The position numbers and the translations under genes are program-made. From Terriglobales bacterium (GTDB lineage: Bacteria; Acidobacteriota; Terriglobia; Terriglobales; Acidobacteriaceae): a stretch of 64,000 bases of DNA. Shown in pieces: positions 2,681 through 13,126 of this stretch (position 1 is its first letter; each line of letters opens with the position of its first letter). The notes under the pieces are model-generated. The model did not search any database, was not told where the DNA came from, and worked only from the letters and a program-made list of their open reading frames with translations. The DNA is taken from contig DASRER010000042.1 of assembly GCA_035651995.1 (NCBI GenBank), forward strand, positions 1 to 64,000. Reading direction: 5' to 3'.

Positions 2681-3664
2681 TCAGCCTGTTGCGGCACGGT
2701 GCGCGTTCTCCGGGATTGCGTCGCTGGTCATCATCTGCTCGAAGGTGGCGAACACGTACGGGTCCCACCAGCCGCGGTTCACCTCATCCTGCATCGTCTC
2801 CAGCGCCTGCTCCAGGGAACAGGCACGTTTGTAGGGGCGGTCGGTGGTGAGGGCGTCATACACGTCAACCACCTGGAGGACGCGCGCCGTGATCGGAACT
2901 TGCTCGCCGCGCAGCCCATCGGGATAGCCCGAGCCATCGCGGCGCTCGTGGTGGCTGCGGATGATGGGCAGCACGTCGCGAAACGAATGCAGCGGCGAAC
3001 AGATGCGTTCGCCGACCACGGTGTGCTGCTTCATCACGGCGAACTCTTCGGACGTCAGCCTGGCCGGCTTCAGGAGCACGGCGTCAGGCACGGCCACCTT
3101 GCCGATATCGTGCACGATGCCGGCACAGCGCAGGGTCTTGATCTGGTCGTCGCTGAGGCCGCACTCCTGCCCGAGTCGCGCGGCGTACGAGGCCAGCCGC
3201 TGGCAGTGCCCGACCGTGTACGGGTCCTTGCCCTCGATGCTCTCGGCCAGCGCGAAGAGCACGGCTTCGGCGTGCTCCAGTTCGTCGGTGAAGTGCTTCA
3301 GGCTGAGCAGCGAGCGCACGCGTGCCAGCAGTTCCACGCGCTGCACCGGTTTGTTCAGCAGGTCGTCCCCGCCGGCCTCGATGCCGCGTACGCGGTCTTC
3401 GAGGGCCGTAAGGCCGGTAATGAAAACCACTGGCTGCAGGCGCGTGTCGGGATCGGCTTTGATGGCGCGGCATACATCGAAGCCGCTCAGGCCGGGCATC
3501 TGCACGTCGAGCAGGACCAGGTCCGGACGCAGCACCCCGAACCGATGGAGGGCGGTATGGCCGTCGGTAACCTGCACAACGGTGTAGCCCGCTTCGCACA
3601 GTATTTCCGTAATCAGCTCGCGGTTCTGCGCGTCGTCGTCGGCAATCAGGATAGTTTCGCTCAT
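2681..3664 (-). CDS. Response regulator with HD-GYP c-di-GMP phosphodiesterase domain
   Basis: The 327-residue protein has a receiver domain (1-120: acidic Asp9-Asp11, phosphoacceptor Asp53 in LLDVQMP, Lys105) and an HD-GYP domain (about 130-315). The second part carries VHDIGKVAVPD (His185-Asp186) and the signature HHERRDGSGYPDGL (238-251), so it should hydrolyse cyclic di-GMP in the cytoplasm when phosphorylated. The start MSETILIADDD at 3664 is preferred over an upstream methionine because receiver homology begins there. It is divergent from the single-domain receiver at 3899, and no kinase is adjacent. Confidence 0.93.
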   Translation of the reverse strand: MSETILIADDDAQNRELITEILCEAGYTVVQVTDGHTALHRFGVLRPDLVLLDVQMPGLSGFDVCRAIKADPDTRLQPVVFITGLTALEDRVRGIEAGGDDLLNKPVQRVELLARVRSLLSLKHFTDELEHAEAVLFALAESIEGKDPYTVGHCQRLASYAARLGQECGLSDDQIKTLRCAGIVHDIGKVAVPDAVLLKPARLTSEEFAVMKQHTVVGERICSPLHSFRDVLPIIRSHHERRDGSGYPDGLRGEQVPITARVLQVVDVYDALTTDRPYKRACSLEQALETMQDEVNRGWWDPYVFATFEQMMTSDAIPENAHRAATG

Positions 3665-3898
3665 GATCGGCCCGGGCCGGGTGAGGTTGCAGGCCCTCAT
3701 CCGGCTTCTCTGCCGGACTACTCACAGTACGGCACATATCGGCCGACGAACGCAGGGAAGCAGCGCATGAGCGTTTGCGCAGGCCCGTTTTGGTTACATC
3801 GGATTCTTGGCGGGTGCCGGAATGGGAATCGAATGGCGTAAACTGAGCAGGAGCACGCCTGCGCAAGAAGGTGTTTGTGACACGATAGGTGAGGAACA

Positions 3899-4303
3899 TT
3901 GCCGCCCTTGAAAACGCTGGTAGTGGAAGACGATCCCGTTGCGCTGGAGCTGATCAGCCAGACCCTCACGCTGCTGGGCGCCGAGGTCACCGCCAAGTCC
4001 GACAGCGTGGAAGCGCAGCGCCTGCTGAACACTATCGCGTTTGACGCTGTCTTTCTCGACCTGGAAATGCCCCAGTTGGGCGGGCTTGAGCTCACCCAGT
4101 CGATACGGCGCAACGGCATCAATCGCAAGTCGCCCATCGTGGTGGTCACCAGCCACAAGGACTCGCAGCACATGGACCAGGCGTTCAAGTCCGGTGCCAC
4201 CTTTGTGCTCTACAAGCCCATTGATCGCGAAAAGCTGCGCAAGGTGTTGGCCATGCTCTCCAACCAGAGCAAGGTAACCCCGGCTGGCGGAGCATCGCGG
4301 TAG
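3899..4303 (+). CDS. Single-domain receiver response regulator
   Basis: The 134-residue protein is a bare CheY-like receiver: Asp11-Asp12, phosphoacceptor Asp54 in FLDLEMP, Thr84 in VVVTSH and Lys106 in YKPID. A 20-residue tail follows and no output domain is present. The start is TTG at 3899, with a strong Shine-Dalgarno (AGGTGAGGA, 3887-3895) just before it, and no in-frame ATG stands near the N-terminus. Its output is probably a protein partner. The next gene on the same strand, 140 bases on, belongs to an unknown family and could be that partner; this is inference from position only. Confidence 0.9.
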   Translation: MPPLKTLVVEDDPVALELISQTLTLLGAEVTAKSDSVEAQRLLNTIAFDAVFLDLEMPQLGGLELTQSIRRNGINRKSPIVVVTSHKDSQHMDQAFKSGATFVLYKPIDREKLRKVLAMLSNQSKVTPAGGASR

Positions 4304-4443
4304 TGGGGCGCACATTCGGCGTCTGCATTCGTCCCGCGGCAGTTGATGGTCTCGATTCTCTTGAGGCAGGTGGTTCTGTTCTTTCCCGGCCAGCTATGGT
4401 TCACTAGCCTGGCTCAGGTACTCGCCTCATTACTGCGGCCCTT

Positions 4444-6120
4444 TTGAACCGTCTGCAAGTAACAGCCCTGACGCTGGCAGACACAGCCAGCCTTGGCGCA
4501 ACCGAATTGGCACGAGACCCAATGCTCCCAGAAAGCATGGGACAAACATCGCGGCAAGCTTCCTCGGGACAGGGCCTGGCGGCACGTTGGCGTATGGCGC
4601 GGCGGGTCTATCCCGTCTATACCTCGATAGCGAAAGCATTCCGGCTCACCGATCCTCCCATCGCGTCGCTGGAAGAACTGAAAGAAGGCTCTGAACCGGA
4701 AGCCCTTCGTGTGGTCGAAGCATGGGTGGACGAACTCGACAAGCAGGTCAAGGCGCACCACCTCCGCCACATCCTGCAGAACGATGACGTGACCGCCGTC
4801 GAGCAGACCCTCGGTTACCTCAGCGAGCGCTATCTGAAGAAGGCGGCCCGCACCGACGCCGACCGCGACAAGTTGGACTTCCTCCTGGCGCAGTACGTGG
4901 CGGTCTGCGCCCCGCCCAGCTTCCATCGCCGCAAGCTGGAGCTTGACGACGTGGGCGAGATCCTCGAAGCCGTCATCGGGCCCTCGGCCGATGATGACCT
5001 CACGCTGCCGGCGCAGTTGGAAGAGCTGGTGGCCGCCACGCCCGGCATGACCAGCATGCGTGGCTTTGTGGACAGCAGGATCATCGAGCGCGGCCGCGCC
5101 CTCAAGGTCGCCGCCGGCGACCGGTATTTTGCCCCCGGCGCCCTGGTCGCCTTTACGCGCTTCAACTACGTGGTGCGGCGCACCTATCTGCGGCTCATGG
5201 ATGTGGAGCTGCAGGCCGTCGCCGCCAACCTGAAAAAACTCACCGAGCTGGGCGTGGAGACGGTGGATTGCCGCGGCATCGGTCTGGATGTGCAGCCGGT
5301 GGCGAAGCTGCAGGAACTGGTCGCCGGCTGGAAGCGGCCGCGGCTCACCGACTATAGCAACGACCAGCCGTTCGTGCAGGCCATGGAGTTGCGCGGCATC
5401 ACCGACGCGGCCGTGGCCGCCGCTGATCCGCAGCAACAGATTCGCGAGCTGCGGCAGCAGGTGGCCGAGCTCCTGGCGCAGTTCCAGCAGGTGTCGCGCG
5501 AGGTGGAAGCGCTGCGCCGCGAGCACCGCGAATCTGCGGCGGCGCCCGCAGTGAGCAAGCCTGCGCCGCCCATTCCAAGCGTCCCTGCGCCGGCGCCGGC
5601 TTCGCCATCCCCGGCAAACGCTCCGGCTGCGACTCCGGCGCCGCCACCGGCCGCCAGCTCTCCTGCCCCGGCTCCGCCAACAACCGCAGCCGCGCCGCCG
5701 GCGCCGTTGGACCCTGCGGCGGCGGAAGAACTGATCGTCGAGTTCACCGAGCGCATCACCAACGAGATTTCCTCGAAAGCATCCAAGAAGGCGGGTGGGC
5801 GCGCCAGGAGCATTACGATCGGCAACCAGGCGCTGCTGCTCACCGAAGCCGAAATTGCCGCCTTCGAGAATCCGGCGAGCGATGAAGTGGGACTGCGGCG
5901 CTGCGTGGCGGTGCGCGCCATCCTGATCGCCTCGGTGGAGTCGCGCGGCCGCGACGCCATGCCGATGCGCAACGCGGTGGCCCTGGGGCAGGCCGAGCTG
6001 GCTCGCGCCGAGAAAGCGGAAGCGGCCGCTTCCGGTGACGCAAAAGCCGCCATGGCCACTTCACGCGCCCGGCTGGCCGCCGTGGTTCGGCATGCCGCCA
6101 CGCAGGCGCGCTCTTCCTAA
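4444..6120 (+). CDS. Unknown protein, long member of a tail-to-tail paralogue pair
   Basis: I do not recognise this family. The product (558 residues from TTG at 4444; ATG at 4522 would give 532) has a mostly helical N-terminal region (about 45-335) and a coiled coil of heptads around QQQIRELRQQVAELLAQF. Then come a Pro/Ala-rich linker of about 75 residues and a separate C-terminal helical domain (about 425-558). There is no signal peptide or membrane segment. The N-terminal region matches the convergent gene at 6155-7405: shared segments include the GSEPE helix, RHILQN/RQILQN and TDADRDKLDFLLAQY...AVCAPPSF. Only this copy has the C-terminal domain. Confidence 0.85.
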   Translation: MNRLQVTALTLADTASLGATELARDPMLPESMGQTSRQASSGQGLAARWRMARRVYPVYTSIAKAFRLTDPPIASLEELKEGSEPEALRVVEAWVDELDKQVKAHHLRHILQNDDVTAVEQTLGYLSERYLKKAARTDADRDKLDFLLAQYVAVCAPPSFHRRKLELDDVGEILEAVIGPSADDDLTLPAQLEELVAATPGMTSMRGFVDSRIIERGRALKVAAGDRYFAPGALVAFTRFNYVVRRTYLRLMDVELQAVAANLKKLTELGVETVDCRGIGLDVQPVAKLQELVAGWKRPRLTDYSNDQPFVQAMELRGITDAAVAAADPQQQIRELRQQVAELLAQFQQVSREVEALRREHRESAAAPAVSKPAPPIPSVPAPAPASPSPANAPAATPAPPPAASSPAPAPPTTAAAPPAPLDPAAAEELIVEFTERITNEISSKASKKAGGRARSITIGNQALLLTEAEIAAFENPASDEVGLRRCVAVRAILIASVESRGRDAMPMRNAVALGQAELARAEKAEAAASGDAKAAMATSRARLAAVVRHAATQARSS

Positions 6121-6154
6121 AGTTTGCGAATCATTTTCCCAGGACCGGCGGGCC

Positions 6155-7405
6155 TCAGATGCGCAGCACGTCGCCTTCGGGGGTGGCCGCTGCCGCCATC
6201 TTGGCCACGCCCTGACCCGCGCTCTTGGCCGCCCGCGGTGGTTCCCCCGCGTCCAGTTCAAGGACCGGCCGGTCTGACGCTGCGCTCGACGCAGCGGTGT
6301 TCAGCGAGCCTCGATCACGCAGCGCCACCTGCAATGCCGAGTGCATGGCCTCCACTGCGGCACGCAGTTCCGCTACTTCTGCCCTGAGCTGCGCCACGGT
6401 GGCGGCGAGTTCGGCATTGGCGGCCGACGCGCGGGCCGGGGCTTGCGCGCTCCCGGCGCTCAACGCGCCCTCCACGACGGCGCGCAATTCCATCAGCCGC
6501 GCAAAGCTGCTGTCGCTGCTGCCACCGTATGCCCATGCGGTTTCCGTGCGAGTAGTGCGGCAGATTTCTTCAATGTAAGCCAGGCGTTCCGTTTGCAGAC
6601 CCGCGCTGCGGCAATCCAGCGACTCAACCCCGCTCTCGCCCAGCTTGCGCAAGCCCGTCTCGATCGCGTCCAGATCGAGATCGCGAAGGCGCGTGCAATG
6701 GCGGCGCAGCAGCCATGTAAAGCGCGTGAAGGTGAGCAGGGCGCTCGGGCCAAAGTACTTCTCCCCGGCTCCCGCCTTGGCTTCGCGTCCTTTTTCGATG
6801 ATGCCGGCGCGCAGCAGTTGGCGCAGGCTGGTGGCGCGCTGCATGTCGGCGATCATCGGCTCCAGGTGTTCGAGCCAGCTCGGCGGTTCCGTGGGACACT
6901 CGCCCAGCACCGGCTCCAGCACCTCGGCCATGTCTTCCAGCGTGATTTCCTTCTGCTGGAAGCTGGGCGGCGCGCACACCGCGAAGTACTGCGCCAGCAG
7001 GAAGTCCAACTTGTCGCGGTCGGCCTCGGTCTTCGACGGTTTGCTCAGGTAGCGATTGATCAGGCTGTGCAGGCGGTCTTCGGTGACGCGGCTGTCGGCG
7101 TTCTGCAGGATCTGGCGGAACTGGTGCACCTGGATGCGGTCGTCCATCTCCGACATCCACGCCCCGACGCGCTCGATGATTTCCGGCTCGGAGCCGTCGC
7201 GCAGCGCGCGCACGTCCTTGTACGGCGGCTCGCCCAGGCGGAACTGTGCCGCCAGCGCCATGTACAGCGGGTAAAGCCGGCGCGCCTCACGCCATCCCGC
7301 CACCAGACTGGTACCGCGAGCTGCCACCTGAAAATCCGCTTTCTCCGGGCCGCAGAACGGCCCAGACAGGCTTTCCCTGATCTCATCAAGTATGCACGCC
7401 GCCAC
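6155..7405 (-). CDS. Unknown protein, short member of the paralogue pair
   Basis: The 416-residue product aligns over most of its length with the N-terminal region of the convergent gene at 4444-6120. Conserved stretches include WREARRLYPLY, RQILQNADS, TEADRDKLDFLLAQYFAVCAPPSF, EKGREAKAGAGEKYFGPSALLTFTRF and SLDCRSAGLQ. It ends with a coiled coil (ATVAQLRAEVAELRAAVEAM) and a short Ala-rich tail, and lacks the long linker and C-terminal domain. The start is GTG at 7405, because a stop codon lies shortly upstream and no ATG precedes the homology. The two genes end only 34 bases apart. Function is unknown. Confidence 0.83.
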   Translation of the reverse strand: MAACILDEIRESLSGPFCGPEKADFQVAARGTSLVAGWREARRLYPLYMALAAQFRLGEPPYKDVRALRDGSEPEIIERVGAWMSEMDDRIQVHQFRQILQNADSRVTEDRLHSLINRYLSKPSKTEADRDKLDFLLAQYFAVCAPPSFQQKEITLEDMAEVLEPVLGECPTEPPSWLEHLEPMIADMQRATSLRQLLRAGIIEKGREAKAGAGEKYFGPSALLTFTRFTWLLRRHCTRLRDLDLDAIETGLRKLGESGVESLDCRSAGLQTERLAYIEEICRTTRTETAWAYGGSSDSSFARLMELRAVVEGALSAGSAQAPARASAANAELAATVAQLRAEVAELRAAVEAMHSALQVALRDRGSLNTAASSAASDRPVLELDAGEPPRAAKSAGQGVAKMAAAATPEGDVLRI

Positions 7406-7674
7406 CAGTTGCGCCAGCGCACAAAAGCGCTCGGTCTCACTTTAGTAACGGGCTGAAACGGGCGGTTTTCCCGAAATGGCACGGCGCATGCCAGCGCGCG
7501 ATTCCTGGCCTGCAATATCCGGCTGCGAGGTGACGAAAGGGAAATGAACGAGCGGAGGCCAGGCCCCACCAGGGCGTCAAGTGGCGCCGGTTCGTGGGGT
7601 TACGCCAGCTTACGATGCGGCCGGGCGCGGGCATCCGAACTCTGGGCGCGACATCCAATCCCTAGAGGCGAGCC

Positions 7675-7875
7675 ATGACTGATAAGCCGGAGCATGGCCG
7701 CGATTTGACCCCCACGCCGCCCACGGCCAGCGGGGGCGACGCGGAAGACCAGCTCACAAAGGCCCGCAATGCCGTCCGCGAGAAAGGCCTCGACAAGACG
7801 CTGGCCGACACGTTTCCCACCAGCGACCCGCCTTCCAGCATCCCCGATCCGGAGATCGACGACGAAGCCGCGTGA
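7675..7875 (+). CDS. Small acidic protein with FPTSDPPS motif
   Basis: The 66-residue hydrophilic product ends with DKTLADTFPTSDPPSSIPDPEIDDEAA. A D-x-F-P-x-S-D-P-P-S motif is shared by many very short, uncharacterised bacterial proteins, which supports this as a real gene. There is no signal peptide or membrane segment, and the composition suggests a disordered protein. The ATG follows GGCGAG a few bases upstream. It lies alone between the GTG start of the paralogue gene and the tRNA on the other strand. Confidence 0.7.
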   Translation: MTDKPEHGRDLTPTPPTASGGDAEDQLTKARNAVREKGLDKTLADTFPTSDPPSSIPDPEIDDEAA

Positions 7876-7910: not shown

Positions 7911-7985
7911 TGGAGCGGGAGACGGGGATCGAACCCGCGACATCCAGCTTGGGAAGCTGGCGTTCTACCGCTGAACTACTCCCGC
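7911..7985 (-). tRNA. tRNA-Gly (anticodon CCC)
   Basis: Read on the minus strand the 72-base body folds as a full cloverleaf: acceptor GCGGGAG/CTCCCGC, D-stem GTTC/GAAC, anticodon stem CCAGC/GCTGG around the loop TTCCCAA (anticodon CCC), and T-arm loop TTCGATC. The discriminator base is T. The CCA end is encoded (7911-7913), giving 75 bases. It reads GGG codons. It is a single tRNA, with the pilin operon terminator about 190 bases away on the same strand. Confidence 0.96.
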
Positions 7986-8216: not shown

Positions 8217-10859
8217 CTAGAAGACCTGCTGGAATCCCAGGCTGACCACGTCGCGGAATCGCGGCGTACCTGGAGGCATCTTGGACAAATCGGTGAAGTC
8301 CTGGTCAAAGGCGTAGGCGCGCGTCGGCGGGCTGTACACCGTGCCGCAGCACTTGAAGACACCGGTGGCGTACGCCGAGTAGTACAAGCTGACCATCGAG
8401 CCGAGGTAGTTCGACGTTGAGCCGCCCCAGTTCTCCAGGTAACGGAGGAAGTTGTGCACACCGCCGTCGGTTCCGAAGTCGTTGGGCGCACCCGCCCACG
8501 TAGGCTTGGGGAAGAATCGGTTCTTTCCCATCGCGATCGCCATGCGGAAGTACGTTGTCGAGGCGCCGCGTCCGCTCACGTCGGCCGGACTGTTGAAGCT
8601 CTCCAGATCGGACCAGCCATTGGAGAGCAACGTGACGGTGTCGGCAATGACCGCCGAAGAGGCGTGCGGATCGCCGAAGCCGGCACCGGTGCTGGCGTTG
8701 TAGTCGCCAAGCACGTAGGCCGGGTTTTCAGTGGCCAGGGTAAAGCCCGGCATGGGCACGTTGCCGAGCGAACCGTTGACCAGGCGCACAGCATGGCGCG
8801 CGCCTGAGACCCAGTTCTTGCGCGCGGTCCCCATGCAATCCACCGCAACCACCGGGTTGCCGCTCTTGCCGGATCCGAACCCGAGGCCCAGGTCGTTCTT
8901 GCCGTAGGTTTCCAGCAAGCCGTTCCCGTTGATGTCCTCACCGGTATCGAGCGTCCCGTTGGGAGTACCGGCCGACGTGGCCGGATTGATGACGTCTTCG
9001 AAACCGTATTCCCCGTTCAAGCTGCCTGAGGCGCCGGCCAGCATGCCGCGGCGGTCAGAGAAGTACAGAACGTAGCCGTTCTGGGTAACGTTCTCCGTCT
9101 GCGTGCCGGTGGTGCCGATGGCGCCGCTCAGCCAGCGGTTCAGGTTGCGAACATCAATTTCCACGACATTGATGACGCCGCCCACGTTGCAGCTGGTGGT
9201 AGTGCGCTGGTTCTCGCGCAGCTCGCCCTCGCGCGCATCGTACATGTTGATGGGATACCAATTGTTGCGCGTGGCCGCACCCGTAATCACGCTGCCCGTG
9301 CCGCTGTCGGTAACCAGTTCGGCCGGGACCGCGGGAACGCCCTTCTTGGCCGCCACCGCCGCATCCGCTACGCCGTTGGCGTTGCGGTCAGACTGCTCCT
9401 GGAAGATCAGAATAGCGTTGGGGTGGACCGCGTTCGGCGCTCCCGACGTGGGCGGCGTGAAGCCGCGGGCGAACCCGAGCTCAAGCCACTCCCTGGTGAC
9501 GGGTACAAAACTGCCGTCAGACTTGTGGATCTCCACACGCAGGTATCCGTCCAGCAGGTTCCATGTGCTGCCGCTGATGAGCGGCGCACCGGAGGGCTGA
9601 AGGGTAGGTTCCGGAGTGGGCAGTATCCAGCCGGTCTCGGTGGCGACCGAAGCGGTCGTGCCTTCGGCAAAATAGGTGTGGTTCGCCGAGCCGCCCACCG
9701 GAACACCGGTGGAGTAATCCGGGCCGCTGCCAAAGTGGCCGTTGGCCAGGCGGATGTTCTGCGGATCCGACGCGCCTCCGGGCAGCTGGGCCGGGTCATC
9801 GGCCAGCAGCACGCGGATTTGCGCTTGGTTGTACAGGCGCGATTCGCCGATCGCCGACGTCAACGATTCGCCCGCAGCAGGCTGCCGCACGATCTCGATC
9901 GGGCTGACGCCGGTTTGCACAAACGCCAGGTTCAGCGGCTTGGCGCCGGTGCTGCCGCTCAGAATCATCGAGTTGTAGGTGCTGGTGGAGATGGACTGCC
10001 AGCCCGAGTTCGCCGTTCCCGTGCCACCGTAGGCCGGGGTCGGGCCGTTGGTGGAGCTGCCCTCATTAGGCGAGAGTTGCAGGTTGCGGCAGGCCGGCTT
10101 GGAGCCATCGCATCCGCTGGGCGCGGTCGGGATCAGGACGGTGCCGGTGCGGCCCTGGGCGGCCGTGCTGGCGCCGTTGGCGAGCTGGTCACGCACTACG
10201 TCGCCGGCGGCGCGAATCATCGTATGAAAAGTGATCGAGTTGTCCGATGCCAGATACAGGTTGCCGTTCGTCTGCACGCGGCCGTTGAAGTCGAAGGCCG
10301 GGCCGGGGAAGAAGTCGAGGTCGGTCTGCGAATACACGCCGAACTGGAACACAGGGATTTCGGCGATTTCCACCTGGCGGATCATGCGCACTTCTTCGCC
10401 GCCGGGACGTTGAGCCGTTACCTGAAGCGTCAGCGGAACAATGAGGGCCAGCAGTCCGGCGTTGGGACCCGAGGAAATGGTCTGCACATGCGAAGGCGGA
10501 TTGCCGCAGCCCGCAGGCGGATTTGGAATGGTAATGGCGTATTCGGGGTAGGTGACGTTCACGTCCGATGTGTTGGGCGTGGCCGTCGCGACACCCTGGA
10601 TGGCGCACCAGTTGGGGGCCGCCTGCGCCTCATACAGCGAATCCAGGTCGGCCATCATCTTTTCCATGCCCGCTTCAGCGCCGTAGAAGGCCATGTTGTT
10701 GCCTGAGTCCGTCTTCTGCAGCCGCTGCTCGGAGTTCACCTTGTAGAGCACAGCCACTGCCAGAGCGGACATCAGGATGAGCAGGAGAAGCGCCGAGAGA
10801 AGAACAATTCCCTGCTGCGGATTCCCGCGGACCCGGGTTCCCATTCCTAACCGTTTCAT
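8217..10859 (-). CDS. Very large PilX-like minor pilin / pilus assembly protein
   Basis: The 880-residue product has the PilX N-terminal pattern: a short basic leader, then a 23-residue hydrophobic segment (about 18-40, GIVLLSALLLLILMSALAVA) lacking the usual Glu5. A very long extracellular region follows, rich in Gly, Ser, Thr and Asn. A late motif LGDYNASTGAGFGDPHASS with a following ADTVTLLSNGW is typical of the large acidobacterial PilX-like proteins. The ATG at 10859 is chosen because GAGGG lies just upstream and the pilW stop is only 10 bases away; an upstream extension would overlap pilW. It is the last gene of the operon. It probably sits at the pilus tip and may replace the missing PilY1 adhesin (inference). 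Confidence 0.85.
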   Translation of the reverse strand: MKRLGMGTRVRGNPQQGIVLLSALLLLILMSALAVAVLYKVNSEQRLQKTDSGNNMAFYGAEAGMEKMMADLDSLYEAQAAPNWCAIQGVATATPNTSDVNVTYPEYAITIPNPPAGCGNPPSHVQTISSGPNAGLLALIVPLTLQVTAQRPGGEEVRMIRQVEIAEIPVFQFGVYSQTDLDFFPGPAFDFNGRVQTNGNLYLASDNSITFHTMIRAAGDVVRDQLANGASTAAQGRTGTVLIPTAPSGCDGSKPACRNLQLSPNEGSSTNGPTPAYGGTGTANSGWQSISTSTYNSMILSGSTGAKPLNLAFVQTGVSPIEIVRQPAAGESLTSAIGESRLYNQAQIRVLLADDPAQLPGGASDPQNIRLANGHFGSGPDYSTGVPVGGSANHTYFAEGTTASVATETGWILPTPEPTLQPSGAPLISGSTWNLLDGYLRVEIHKSDGSFVPVTREWLELGFARGFTPPTSGAPNAVHPNAILIFQEQSDRNANGVADAAVAAKKGVPAVPAELVTDSGTGSVITGAATRNNWYPINMYDAREGELRENQRTTTSCNVGGVINVVEIDVRNLNRWLSGAIGTTGTQTENVTQNGYVLYFSDRRGMLAGASGSLNGEYGFEDVINPATSAGTPNGTLDTGEDINGNGLLETYGKNDLGLGFGSGKSGNPVVAVDCMGTARKNWVSGARHAVRLVNGSLGNVPMPGFTLATENPAYVLGDYNASTGAGFGDPHASSAVIADTVTLLSNGWSDLESFNSPADVSGRGASTTYFRMAIAMGKNRFFPKPTWAGAPNDFGTDGGVHNFLRYLENWGGSTSNYLGSMVSLYYSAYATGVFKCCGTVYSPPTRAYAFDQDFTDLSKMPPGTPRFRDVVSLGFQQVF

Positions 10860-10869
10860 GATGAGACCC

Positions 10870-11961
10870 TCAGTTGTAACGATCGTGATAAGCCAGGTTC
10901 CGCGGACCCACCGACGTGGAATACGCGATCCGGTCGAAGAGCCCCTTGTTGTTGGGACGCAACGCACGGGCCGTGATCGTCATGTTGATCTTGCGGATCT
11001 GGTTGGGTTTTGGAGTTGCGGGGGAGCCGGTAGCAGCATCGGGGAGATTCGCGGTAAGAGTGCTGGTCGTGTCGTCAAACACGTCGTAGGTAAACTGCAA
11101 ATCGTCAATGTGTTCGGCCACCGGCACTGGCTTGTGCGCTCCTACCTGGCGCATCAGGCGCACGTCGGGACCGTTCGTGGTGCTGACGCTCTGCAGGAAG
11201 TAAGTAATCATGGTAATGCGCGACACCGTCACCGCCGGATAGTGCGGGCCGGATCCCGGAATCGGGTTGTAACGCAGCGACTTGATGTTTCCCACCGGCG
11301 CGCCCGACTGATTGATGTTCAAAGGATCGAGGTTGGCGAAGCTGATCACGCGCGTAGAGCCGTTGACTCCCGTCACCACACCCAGGGCGGAGCCCAGCGA
11401 GTTGGTGAGCAGCAAGACGTCGCCCACGGTGATGCCAACGGCCACGTCATTCACTGCCGGCGTGGTGGAGGCCGGCATGGTGAGCTGGTCCCCCGCGTCG
11501 GTCAGGGCGGTCGTGGTATAGGCCGTCCAGTTCAGCGTTGGGTCTTTGAACGCCAGAACAATCGCGTCCGTCGTTTCCAGCGTAGTTGGTCCGGCATCGT
11601 GGCCGGGCGTCACCTTGTAAAAGACTCCCTGAGTGAACTTGTTGTTGGTCGTCAGGTAGCAGGTGGTGCTGTCGCATCCGAACACCGGGTTCGTTCCGCC
11701 GCTGGCCTGGCTGGGCAGGGGAATTCCGCCGGTCGGCATGCCGGTGCCGGCCTGCTGGAGGTCGCGGACAATCTGATTGGCGGCGCTTCGCAGCTCCGAC
11801 TGCATTTCACCGCGCTGCATCACCAGCGTGCTGCTCTGCATGCTGAAGCTGACCACTCGAAAGGCCGCCGCCAGCACGATCATCGATATCGCGATCGACA
11901 CTAGAAGCTCAAGCAGCGTGAGACCGCGCTGCCGCCCGATTGTGGTCGAAGGTTTGCTCAT
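10870..11961 (-). CDS. PilW-like minor pilin
   Basis: The 363-residue product has a class III prepilin signal: basic leader MSKPSTTIGRQRG, then the processed N-terminus LTLLELLVSIAISM with Glu at mature position 5 and a hydrophobic helix to about residue 38. The rest is a large globular pilin head, longer than most pilins and with several Cys (a CDSTTCY motif). It overlaps pilV by 4 bases (ATGA), so the two are translationally coupled. It should be inserted as a minor subunit that primes or caps the type IV pilus. Confidence 0.88.
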   Translation of the reverse strand: MSKPSTTIGRQRGLTLLELLVSIAISMIVLAAAFRVVSFSMQSSTLVMQRGEMQSELRSAANQIVRDLQQAGTGMPTGGIPLPSQASGGTNPVFGCDSTTCYLTTNNKFTQGVFYKVTPGHDAGPTTLETTDAIVLAFKDPTLNWTAYTTTALTDAGDQLTMPASTTPAVNDVAVGITVGDVLLLTNSLGSALGVVTGVNGSTRVISFANLDPLNINQSGAPVGNIKSLRYNPIPGSGPHYPAVTVSRITMITYFLQSVSTTNGPDVRLMRQVGAHKPVPVAEHIDDLQFTYDVFDDTTSTLTANLPDAATGSPATPKPNQIRKINMTITARALRPNNKGLFDRIAYSTSVGPRNLAYHDRYN

Positions 11962-12515
11962 GGGAACCTCGAGATGTATCCGCTGACCGAGTAATTGCGC
12001 GTGCCCCGGCCAGGCGAGAAGACCTGGACTGTGACCACCAGCTTGCGCATGTTCGGATTCACGCTACCATCGGCCAGATACACGGGTGAGATCGCGATCT
12101 GCCGCCGGTAGTTTGAAAGCGGAAGCACCACGTCGTCGGCCGTTCCCATCAAACCGTCGTTTCCTGGGGTGATGATGCGGTCCAGGGTGCTGGTGTCGGA
12201 CACCGTCCCCGCCACGCCATTGGCGCCGGGCAGGTAGAGGGGTTGGAAGCCGTCCTTGAAGATGCCGCCGTTGCTGACGTTCTGAATCGAGGCGTACGAA
12301 ATCGAAGTGTCATTACGCGCGCTGTAGACCGACTCGAGGGCCTCGCGCGCCTTCTGCTTTGCAATCTGGTCTTCCTGCGCGACCTGCATGGTGGCCACCG
12401 CCTGCGCGAACAGCGCCAGCAGCGCCAGCAGGCCGACGGTCAGAATGACCATCGCCATCATGACTTCAACCAGCGTAAACCCGAGCGATTTCCGGCGTTT
12501 TTTCACTGTCGCCAC
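11958..12515 (-). CDS. PilV-like minor pilin
   Basis: The 185-residue product starts with basic leader MATVKKRRKSLG, followed by the mature N-terminus FTLVEVMMAMVILTVGLLALLALF with Glu at position 5, as required by prepilin peptidase and pilus packing. The head region is short. It overlaps fimT upstream by 13 bases and pilW downstream by 4 bases, so expression of the minor pilins is tightly linked. Confidence 0.88.
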   Translation of the reverse strand: MATVKKRRKSLGFTLVEVMMAMVILTVGLLALLALFAQAVATMQVAQEDQIAKQKAREALESVYSARNDTSISYASIQNVSNGGIFKDGFQPLYLPGANGVAGTVSDTSTLDRIITPGNDGLMGTADDVVLPLSNYRRQIAISPVYLADGSVNPNMRKLVVTVQVFSPGRGTRNYSVSGYISRFP

Positions 12516-13126
12516 TCCGGACTATTACCGTTCATCACCAGGAACCAGCCCTTCACGCGGCCGGTGGCGCCAAAGAGCGAAACGGCCCGGCTGGAAAGCA
12601 GGTCCCCCGGCCGGGCCATGTACACCACGCCGTTATTCAGGCGATTGGCCGAATCCAGCGCGCGGCCGTCAGGCTGGAAGAACACCTGCGTTCCGGCGCC
12701 GCCGTAGTCAATCGAGAAGTCAATGGCCCGGTTGCCGACGCCCATGCTATCGGGCGTCGCCGCCGTCGGAATTCCGCTGACCACGGTGAATTGTGTTTCC
12801 GCGGGAATGTCGATGGATCCCTGCGCAACCGCCGTGTAGGCGCCGCCGGCGTCGAGCTCCATGCGATCCAGCTGAATGGTCCGCGGGCTGACGAAGCTCA
12901 GGCGGTAGATGCGCCGCTCGTCAATGGCGCGCTCATGCGCCACGCGCATCTGTCCGAGCACGATCTGGAGGGCTGTGTCCGCCTTTGCCCGCTGGAGCGT
13001 GCCCGAAACCTGAACCAGAGCGATGCCCGTGACCACCATAATGATGGCAATCACGAACAACAGCTCGACCATCGAAAAGCCGGCGGCTTTCCGAACCCGG
13101 GAGCGCGAGTGAACGAGCTTATTCAT
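12503..13126 (-). CDS. FimT/GspH-type pseudopilin
   Basis: The 207-residue product is the first gene of the minor pilin operon. It has a basic leader ending in Gly16 (RKAAG) and the mature sequence FSMVELLFVIAIIMVVTGIAL with Glu at position 5. After the helix comes the GspH/FimT-like head with a conserved AHERAIDERRIYRLSF segment. FimT proteins are minor pilins linked to pilus initiation and DNA uptake. About 120 bases of non-coding sequence precede it; I found no sigma-54 site with correct 10-base spacing there. Confidence 0.87.
   Translation of the reverse strand: MNKLVHSRSRVRKAAGFSMVELLFVIAIIMVVTGIALVQVSGTLQRAKADTALQIVLGQMRVAHERAIDERRIYRLSFVSPRTIQLDRMELDAGGAYTAVAQGSIDIPAETQFTVVSGIPTAATPDSMGVGNRAIDFSIDYGGAGTQVFFQPDGRALDSANRLNNGVVYMARPGDLLSSRAVSLFGATGRVKGWFLVMNGNSPEWRQ

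Follow-up and report, generated by a model that had tools for sequence, protein, structure and literature searches.

Two convergent genes, here called A and B, raise the question of which family they belong to and what a genome would do with two copies of it placed tail to tail. They lie in a stretch of 64,000 nucleotides (the window) from a Terriglobales bacterium of the Acidobacteriaceae (assembly GCA_035651995.1, contig DASRER010000042.1, positions 1 to 64,000). An earlier note on this DNA had described them as paralogues of an unrecognised family, 34 bases apart and next to a lone receiver. Relatives of A and B are usually encoded inside a sensory-signalling operon, and the genome of the window is the odd one out, having an empty slot in this operon and the pair instead. 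We consider A and B to be paralogues, located outside of the operon, of a so far undescribed adaptor family of Acidobacteriota that is mainly helical and has two domains. The family protein would act as a scaffold, and A and B would probably serve the operon or a related circuit in trans. We assign this reading a probability of roughly 0.45.

Two paralogues without an entry in family libraries

The likeness of A and B is not due to chance, because BLASTP yielded 258 bits (E = 5e-85; 38% identity over 384 residues) and the N-terminal domain (N-domain) alone is 44% identical. The coordinates confirm the tail-to-tail arrangement (Table 1). The conserved block that had been noticed before is found in both translations and reads RTDADRDKLDFLLAQYVAVCAPPSF in A and KTEADRDKLDFLLAQYFAVCAPPSF in B. 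The common helical N-terminal region of about 290 residues was borne out as well and could be refined to a compact domain plus a coiled coil, and the Pro-rich linker and C-terminal domain (C-domain) are indeed present in A and absent from B. Gene A comprises 558 codons if read from a TTG at position 4444, or 532 from an ATG at position 4522; by alignment, the ATG is the more likely start.

Searches of Pfam and NCBIfam with A and B gave no family, just weak coiled-coil and Pro-rich matches. Neither protein matched Response_reg, HisKA, HATPase or CheW of Pfam, and a search of PDB by sequence gave nothing better than E = 0.16, the single such match being taken as chance. When 19 diverse family members were compared with Pfam and NCBIfam, isolated single-member matches alone were obtained and no catalytic family. 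The profile and PDB sequence searches are thus in agreement with the claim of an unrecognised family, which has no entry in the family libraries searched. An identity as TraB was rejected, as the match lay on the coiled coil and the Pro-rich linker and reached 20.6 of the 504 bits needed. A phage origin and a role in defence were rejected because A and B matched nothing in PHROGs and PADLOC, respectively.

An AlphaFold2 model of A, computed from 82 sequences, has a mean predicted local distance difference test score (pLDDT) of 84. A helical N-domain with two short strands (pLDDT mostly >90) is followed by a long helix and then by a Pro/Ala linker that is disordered; the C-domain, made of helices with a beta hairpin, is separate. 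The N-domain of B, predicted alone (pLDDT 90, predicted template modelling score 0.87), is almost wholly helical. A Foldseek search of PDB with the A model and the B N-domain model gave no match at E = 0.001 or better, a result that excludes no fold family. The best structural alignments were those of the C-domain with the MIT domain of ULK3 (Z 8.4, root-mean-square deviation (rmsd) 2.4, 86 residues) and of the N-domain (Z 6.5, rmsd 2.8, 74 residues); both are within the noise that the tool states for helical proteins and do not place either domain in a fold class such as, for the C-domain, MIT or 14-3-3-like bundles.

The C-domain of A is supported by alignments, and a single-sequence search with A reaches the C-domain of a relative (G007) at 37% identity and E = 6e-9. 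As in the short forms encoded in operons, this domain is absent from B. Because divergent relatives carry both domains, as judged from the alignment and a C-domain profile, the C-domain is probably ancestral; it was kept in A and probably lost from B and from the short forms in operons.

Across 82 rows consisting of A, B and the relatives from named genomes, 14 columns are invariant and 11 of these are charged. Six charged columns (D, R, D, K, R, K) are still invariant in 19 sequences that include divergent members. Such conservation would be expected if the N-domain were an enzyme or a ligand-binding sensor of a new type instead of an adaptor. We regard this as very improbable, since the profile searches gave no catalytic family and since charged residues that are invariant in helical domains often form structural salt bridges.

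Table 1. Positions of genes A and B, their predicted parts and the upstream receiver in the window
Feature	Position	Strand	Basis or remark
Gene A, full-length family member: N-domain, coiled coil, Pro/Ala linker, C-domain	4444..6120	+	
A, N-terminal helical domain with invariant charged residues (RDKxD block)	4564..5421	+	AlphaFold2, alignment
A, long helix (probable coiled coil), then Pro/Ala-rich low-confidence linker	5428..5715	+	
A, C-terminal domain: helix, beta hairpin, helical bundle	5719..6117	+	also in many operon and divergent members
Gap between the convergent stop codons of A and B, 34 bases	6121..6154		
Gene B: N-domain and coiled coil, without C-domain; 416 residues	6155..7405	-	GTG start uncertain
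B, N-terminal helical domain	6452..7324	-	predicted alone
Single-domain receiver upstream of A	3899..4303	+	Pfam Response_reg

The operon of the relatives and the empty slot

The distribution of the family was determined in a sample of 399 genomes of the class by means of profile A1, which contains A and B themselves (437 and 453 bits, respectively); 264 bits or more were counted as a strong match. At E = 1e-5, 99 of the 399 genomes matched, 84 of them strongly and at 87 places. Few first-look candidates were scored per genome, so that absences are uncertain and second copies are lower bounds. A wider profile located the family in 64 of 396 genomes of the phylum. With A as a single query, ten relatives were found at E = 8e-65 to 4e-47 and one at 2e-26, and in the genome of the window A and B were the sole scoring copies. 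A single-sequence scan of the contigs of named genomes with A found nothing; a pattern scan of these genomes with alignment A1 yielded 107 relatives, of which 80 were kept. The record titles of the latter name Acidobacteriota in all cases save L141. This locus is titled Betaproteobacteria, its operon groups closely with acidobacterial ones on the tree, and the assembly is probably mislabelled.

Two family places occur in G000, G306 and G181 only, and those of G306 and G181 are far apart. No second copy was seen in the 80 named loci. The interpretation of A and B as an inverted duplication kept as a pair was not corroborated: with few candidates scored per genome, none of the 84 genomes with their 87 strong places yielded a further convergent pair. 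Distant family members are arranged in tandem on one strand at L175, L176 and L177, which belong to three genomes of another family. One divergent branch of our protein family (L033, L170, L174, L190, L191, L192, L193) lies near homologous genes of about 880-1000 codons, often in convergent orientation; where tested (L170), this neighbour is an RNase E/G protein.

The layout of the operon was deduced from the Pfam-labelled genes of one locus and their homologues elsewhere. One strand of the conserved cluster encodes a TonB_C-like protein, an MCP, CheW, CheR, CheA and CheB. The other strand encodes a PAS histidine kinase, a receiver, an NtrC-type regulator, a protein of about 116 residues (PilZ-like), the family protein and a protein of about 230 residues (REC-DHp). 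A part of the loci continues with CheY, CheW, MCP, CheR, a CheA with a receiver (CheA-hybrid) and CheB. Cut-offs of at least 264 bits for the family, E = 1e-6 for the PilZ-like gene and E = 1e-20 for REC-DHp were used to count co-occurrence in the 399 genomes. The PilZ-like gene and the family are together in 73 genomes, with the family alone in 11, the PilZ-like gene alone in 3 and neither in 312; the corresponding numbers for REC-DHp and the family are 75, 9, 5 and 310, and Fisher values are not independent tests because the genomes are mutually related. As with the family, part of the candidates in each genome was scored for the two partner genes, so that their absences are uncertain too. 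The PilZ-like gene is found at most 200 bases upstream of the family gene and on the same strand in 72 of 73 genomes, and REC-DHp at most 1.3 kb downstream in 73 of 75. The genome of the window is the sole exception for the PilZ-like gene and, together with G015, one of two for REC-DHp. Gene order and co-occurrence support a conserved module of three genes. REC-DHp loci without a family gene are present in G015, G083 and G113 (PilZ-like gene missing too) and in G004 (PilZ-like gene kept).

For the PilZ-like protein, no Pfam match (PF07238) was obtained with two operon proteins and the copy of the window's genome. A local hhalign comparison with 22 PilZ domains gave E = 6e-4 over 72 columns, and two unrelated controls gave E = 0.46 and 0.6. 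Four REC-DHp proteins tested scored 27.2 to 31.1 bits with HisKA (cut-off 26.9 bits) and had no HATPase match. The start of REC-DHp resembles a pseudo-receiver (hhalign probability 44%); the residue aligned to the phospho-accepting aspartate is a Gly in eight of nine rows and an Ile in one. The histidine is kept in 91 of 96 matched frames, some genes being counted twice. The box RHxxNNxL occurs in 81 of these frames; of the other 15, ten keep the His after a different residue, one is shifted and four have no box. Profile matches that seemed to place REC-DHp next to the family in phylum-level genomes were rejected, as these neighbours are small kinases with an ATPase part. In two distant genomes (L224, L229), the family gene lies beside a small kinase that has a similar box as well as an ATPase part, the latter recognised by eye in the translation; this is in line with a descent of REC-DHp by loss. 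Sigma-54-like sites are not enriched before the three genes (6 of 61 loci; 8 sites in 85 kb compared to a background of 0.126 per kb).

In the genome of the window, contig C22 encodes a PAS kinase, a receiver, NtrC, the PilZ-like protein, REC-DHp, CheW, MCP, CheR and a second CheW-like protein. There is nothing between the PilZ-like gene and REC-DHp, and A and B are located on contig C42, where no PilZ-like gene lies directly upstream and no REC-DHp downstream. Among the 73 genomes having both the family and the PilZ-like gene, this is the only one that has them apart. The family gene has therefore left the slot or was lost from it. CheY, CheA-hybrid and CheB were not found in the arm of C22 next to the slot, where the following genes look unrelated by translation; the other arm keeps CheA and CheB. 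With no CheA-hybrid, CheY or CheB found in it, the arm next to the slot, which is the second Che arm (L148/L149), would need another kinase.

The presence of the C-domain was compared with that of a downstream Che cluster in 97 family genes, leaving out eight duplicate loci and the two window genes. Both are present in 25 cases, neither in 51, and Che genes without a C-domain in none. Four genes have a C-domain without Che genes (the solo copies L156, L158 and L160, and L167 in an operon), and 17 genes without a C-domain are undecided for Che because of contig ends. This pattern fits a C-domain that reaches the chemosensory array. L077 was discarded as an array locus, since a loose Che rule had matched a receiver-like frame of 230 residues and no array is present.

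Outside of the operon, a PilZ gene adjoins the family gene in seven of 53 divergent, solo or window loci (L031, L032, L034, L171, L172, L173, L194), and Pfam confirmed the domain in five of five neighbours tested. As five of the seven loci have one common neighbourhood, they represent three settings. Genomes with the family contain 8 to 46 PilZ genes each (38 genomes), so that a single adjacency means little.

Origin of the pair and its neighbours

A tree of 56 N-domains contains a branch with 99/99 support that separates 51 rows with the operon copies from A, B, L156 (G306), L160 (G368) and the long-branched L031. In the best tree A and B are sisters, with weak support (71/87), and the data are also compatible with B grouping with L156 and L160 (p-AU 0.25). 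The branch lengths are 0.61 for B and 1.16 for A, and B is the more conserved copy. A and B are nearest to L156 and L160, the solo copies of two other genomes. Homologous HEAT-repeat proteins adjoin the solo family genes at both of these loci, L156 (9819-12323, minus strand) and L160 (5205-7871, plus strand), and a HEAT homologue is encoded on another contig of the window's genome. At L031 (G015), a PilZ-domain gene with a sub-threshold receiver match (9577-10254, minus strand) converges with the short solo family member.

This topology might mean that A and B belong to a solo lineage having a function of its own apart from the chemosensory operon, the operon copy having been lost along with CheA-hybrid, CheY and CheB. 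Besides the 99/99 branch, three observations argue for it. In G306, an operon copy is present in addition to L156, which makes the latter a separate paralogue; G368 contains a solo copy, and neither the PilZ-like gene nor REC-DHp was matched there; and the genes that adjoin L156 and L160 code for the HEAT-repeat protein, not for Che proteins. However, A, B and the named relatives have the 14 invariant columns in common, the C-domain of the long operon copies is also kept in A, L156 and L160, and the solo gene L031 faces a receiver-PilZ gene. Moreover, the solo copy L158 (G181) groups with the operon copies, although its branch is long and its position poorly supported. The solo genes are therefore not shown as one lineage, and exit from the operon is not the property of a single lineage. 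A p-AU of 0.39 for a clade that unites A, B, L156 and L160 and leaves out L031 neither establishes nor rejects this grouping. Altogether, a separate solo lineage is a serious possibility that we nevertheless consider somewhat doubtful.

The single-domain receiver that had been reported directly upstream of A is real (Pfam Response_reg, E = 8e-25). It is on the same strand and ends 140 bases before the TTG or 218 bases before the ATG of A. A gene for a receiver-HD-GYP response regulator (2684-3700, minus strand) lies beside it, and the divergent family member L032 also adjoins an HD-GYP regulator (40% identity). The pair could thus be the output of the adjacent receiver, and perhaps of the HD-GYP regulator too, if the phosphorylated receiver bound A or an A-B complex. 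In contrast, when the surrounding 18 kb of L156, L158 and L160 were searched with a receiver profile, no receiver was detected near any of these solo copies. The receiver beside A is consequently not a conserved partner, because L156 and L160, the nearest off-operon relatives, are solo genes with no receiver found in this range, an outcome that the earlier note had itself named as refuting such a link. Its likeness to operon receivers (at best 33% and 74 bits, with those of CheA-hybrids) is at a level common among receivers. We therefore judge an output of this receiver to be unlikely. The receiver was also rejected as a relocated operon CheY: its top score is 45 bits against the CheY set, compared with 74 for the CheA-hybrid receivers, and neither value is out of the ordinary. 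The suggested link to signalling stands in so far as the relatives are encoded in a two-component and chemosensory operon, a locus other than the one beside A.

Just beyond B, a row of four minor-pilin-like genes (8217-13126, minus strand) encodes a protein matching PilX_N below the cut-off and three N_methyl proteins, i.e. proteins with a type IV pilin-like leader. A tRNA-Gly (ccc) gene is located between B and this row (7911-7985, minus strand), and the frame listed over it is probably spurious. No sigma-70-like sites were found at 3600-7700. Sigma-54-like sites are fewer in the window than expected by chance (9 compared to 14.5).

Proposed function and known systems

The family is most likely a non-catalytic adaptor that couples a module of PilZ-like protein and phosphorelay to chemosensory signalling; we infer its mechanism as follows. 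The family protein would be made between the PilZ-like protein and the pseudo-receiver-DHp protein, which has a phospho-accepting histidine and no ATPase part. The N-domain may hold the PilZ-like protein, REC-DHp or both. The C-domain, on its flexible linker, would reach a further partner, which in long operons is probably the array. In the genome of the window, A with both domains and B with the N-domain only would probably serve the operon or a related circuit in trans, B being either a partner of A or a competitor that lacks the output arm. Here, we infer every step of binding and phosphotransfer, the response to cyclic di-GMP (c-di-GMP) and the action of A and B on proteins of the operon. 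A more far-reaching version would make the family the core adaptor of an undescribed signalling machine of Acidobacteriota, in which a PilZ-like protein, possibly responsive to c-di-GMP, is linked to a pseudo-receiver/histidine phosphotransferase derived from a kinase, to NtrC and to two Che arrays. A and B would then be a heteromeric switch that arose after the exit from the operon and divided the job. We deem this version unlikely as a whole.

Several observations weigh against this explanation of the family and of A and B. Both are apart from the operon copies on the tree, and the solo copy of G368, with no match to the PilZ-like gene or REC-DHp in that genome, indicates that solo copies may do otherwise. 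The association of the C-domain with Che genes goes back to few events, as each of the two changed three times on the tree and the independent pairs number only two to three, which does not suffice for a test; in addition, L167 has the C-domain without Che genes. The PilZ kinship of the protein of about 116 residues is weak, the hhalign probability being 29% locally and 1.2% globally (E = 0.018 for the latter). Five of the seven PilZ-adjacent loci outside of the operon are one neighbourhood, and a PilZ gene is next door in none of 20 phylum-level loci. Finally, G004, G013 and G103 possess the PilZ-like gene without a strong family match.

The family is fixed between PilZ-like and kinase-derived phosphoacceptor genes in dozens of genomes. 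This points to a coupling, so far unstudied, of chemosensory signalling with phosphorelay and PilZ-type signalling in one of the major phyla of soil. The genome of the window amounts to a natural experiment, since the putative adaptor no longer occupies its slot and a pair is found elsewhere, so that function in trans and the division of domains can be tested directly. No description of the three-gene module was among the matches listed, as excerpts, for the open-licence literature on Acidobacteriota signalling and pili and on chemosensory-PilZ-NtrC clusters.

Phosphotransferases of the PhyT, ChpT and Spo0B type are degenerate histidine kinases, according to an excerpt of PMC5898713. REC-DHp resembles them, as it keeps the HisKA phospho-acceptor box and has no ATPase match; unlike in these proteins, a pseudo-receiver precedes the DHp part. 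This comparison concerns the partner protein and not A and B. MapZ is a PilZ-domain adaptor that acts on chemoreceptor methylation (PMC6370697, excerpt). Similarly, the small PilZ-like protein is encoded near CheR, CheW, MCP and CheA genes. In contrast to MapZ, the copies tested lack a PilZ match in Pfam, and the gene has a fixed place next to that of the family. To our knowledge, MapZ has no such neighbour. With CheW and other array adaptors the family would share a non-catalytic coupling inside a chemosensory system, whereas no CheW match was obtained with A or B and the modelled N-domain consists almost entirely of helices. Myxobacteria possess chemosensory clusters with NtrC-like regulators, e.g. 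Che3/CrdA. The operon of Acidobacteriota likewise combines Che genes with an NtrC-type regulator and a HisKA kinase. It differs from Che3/CrdA in having two divergent Che arrays plus the triad of PilZ-like, family and REC-DHp genes.

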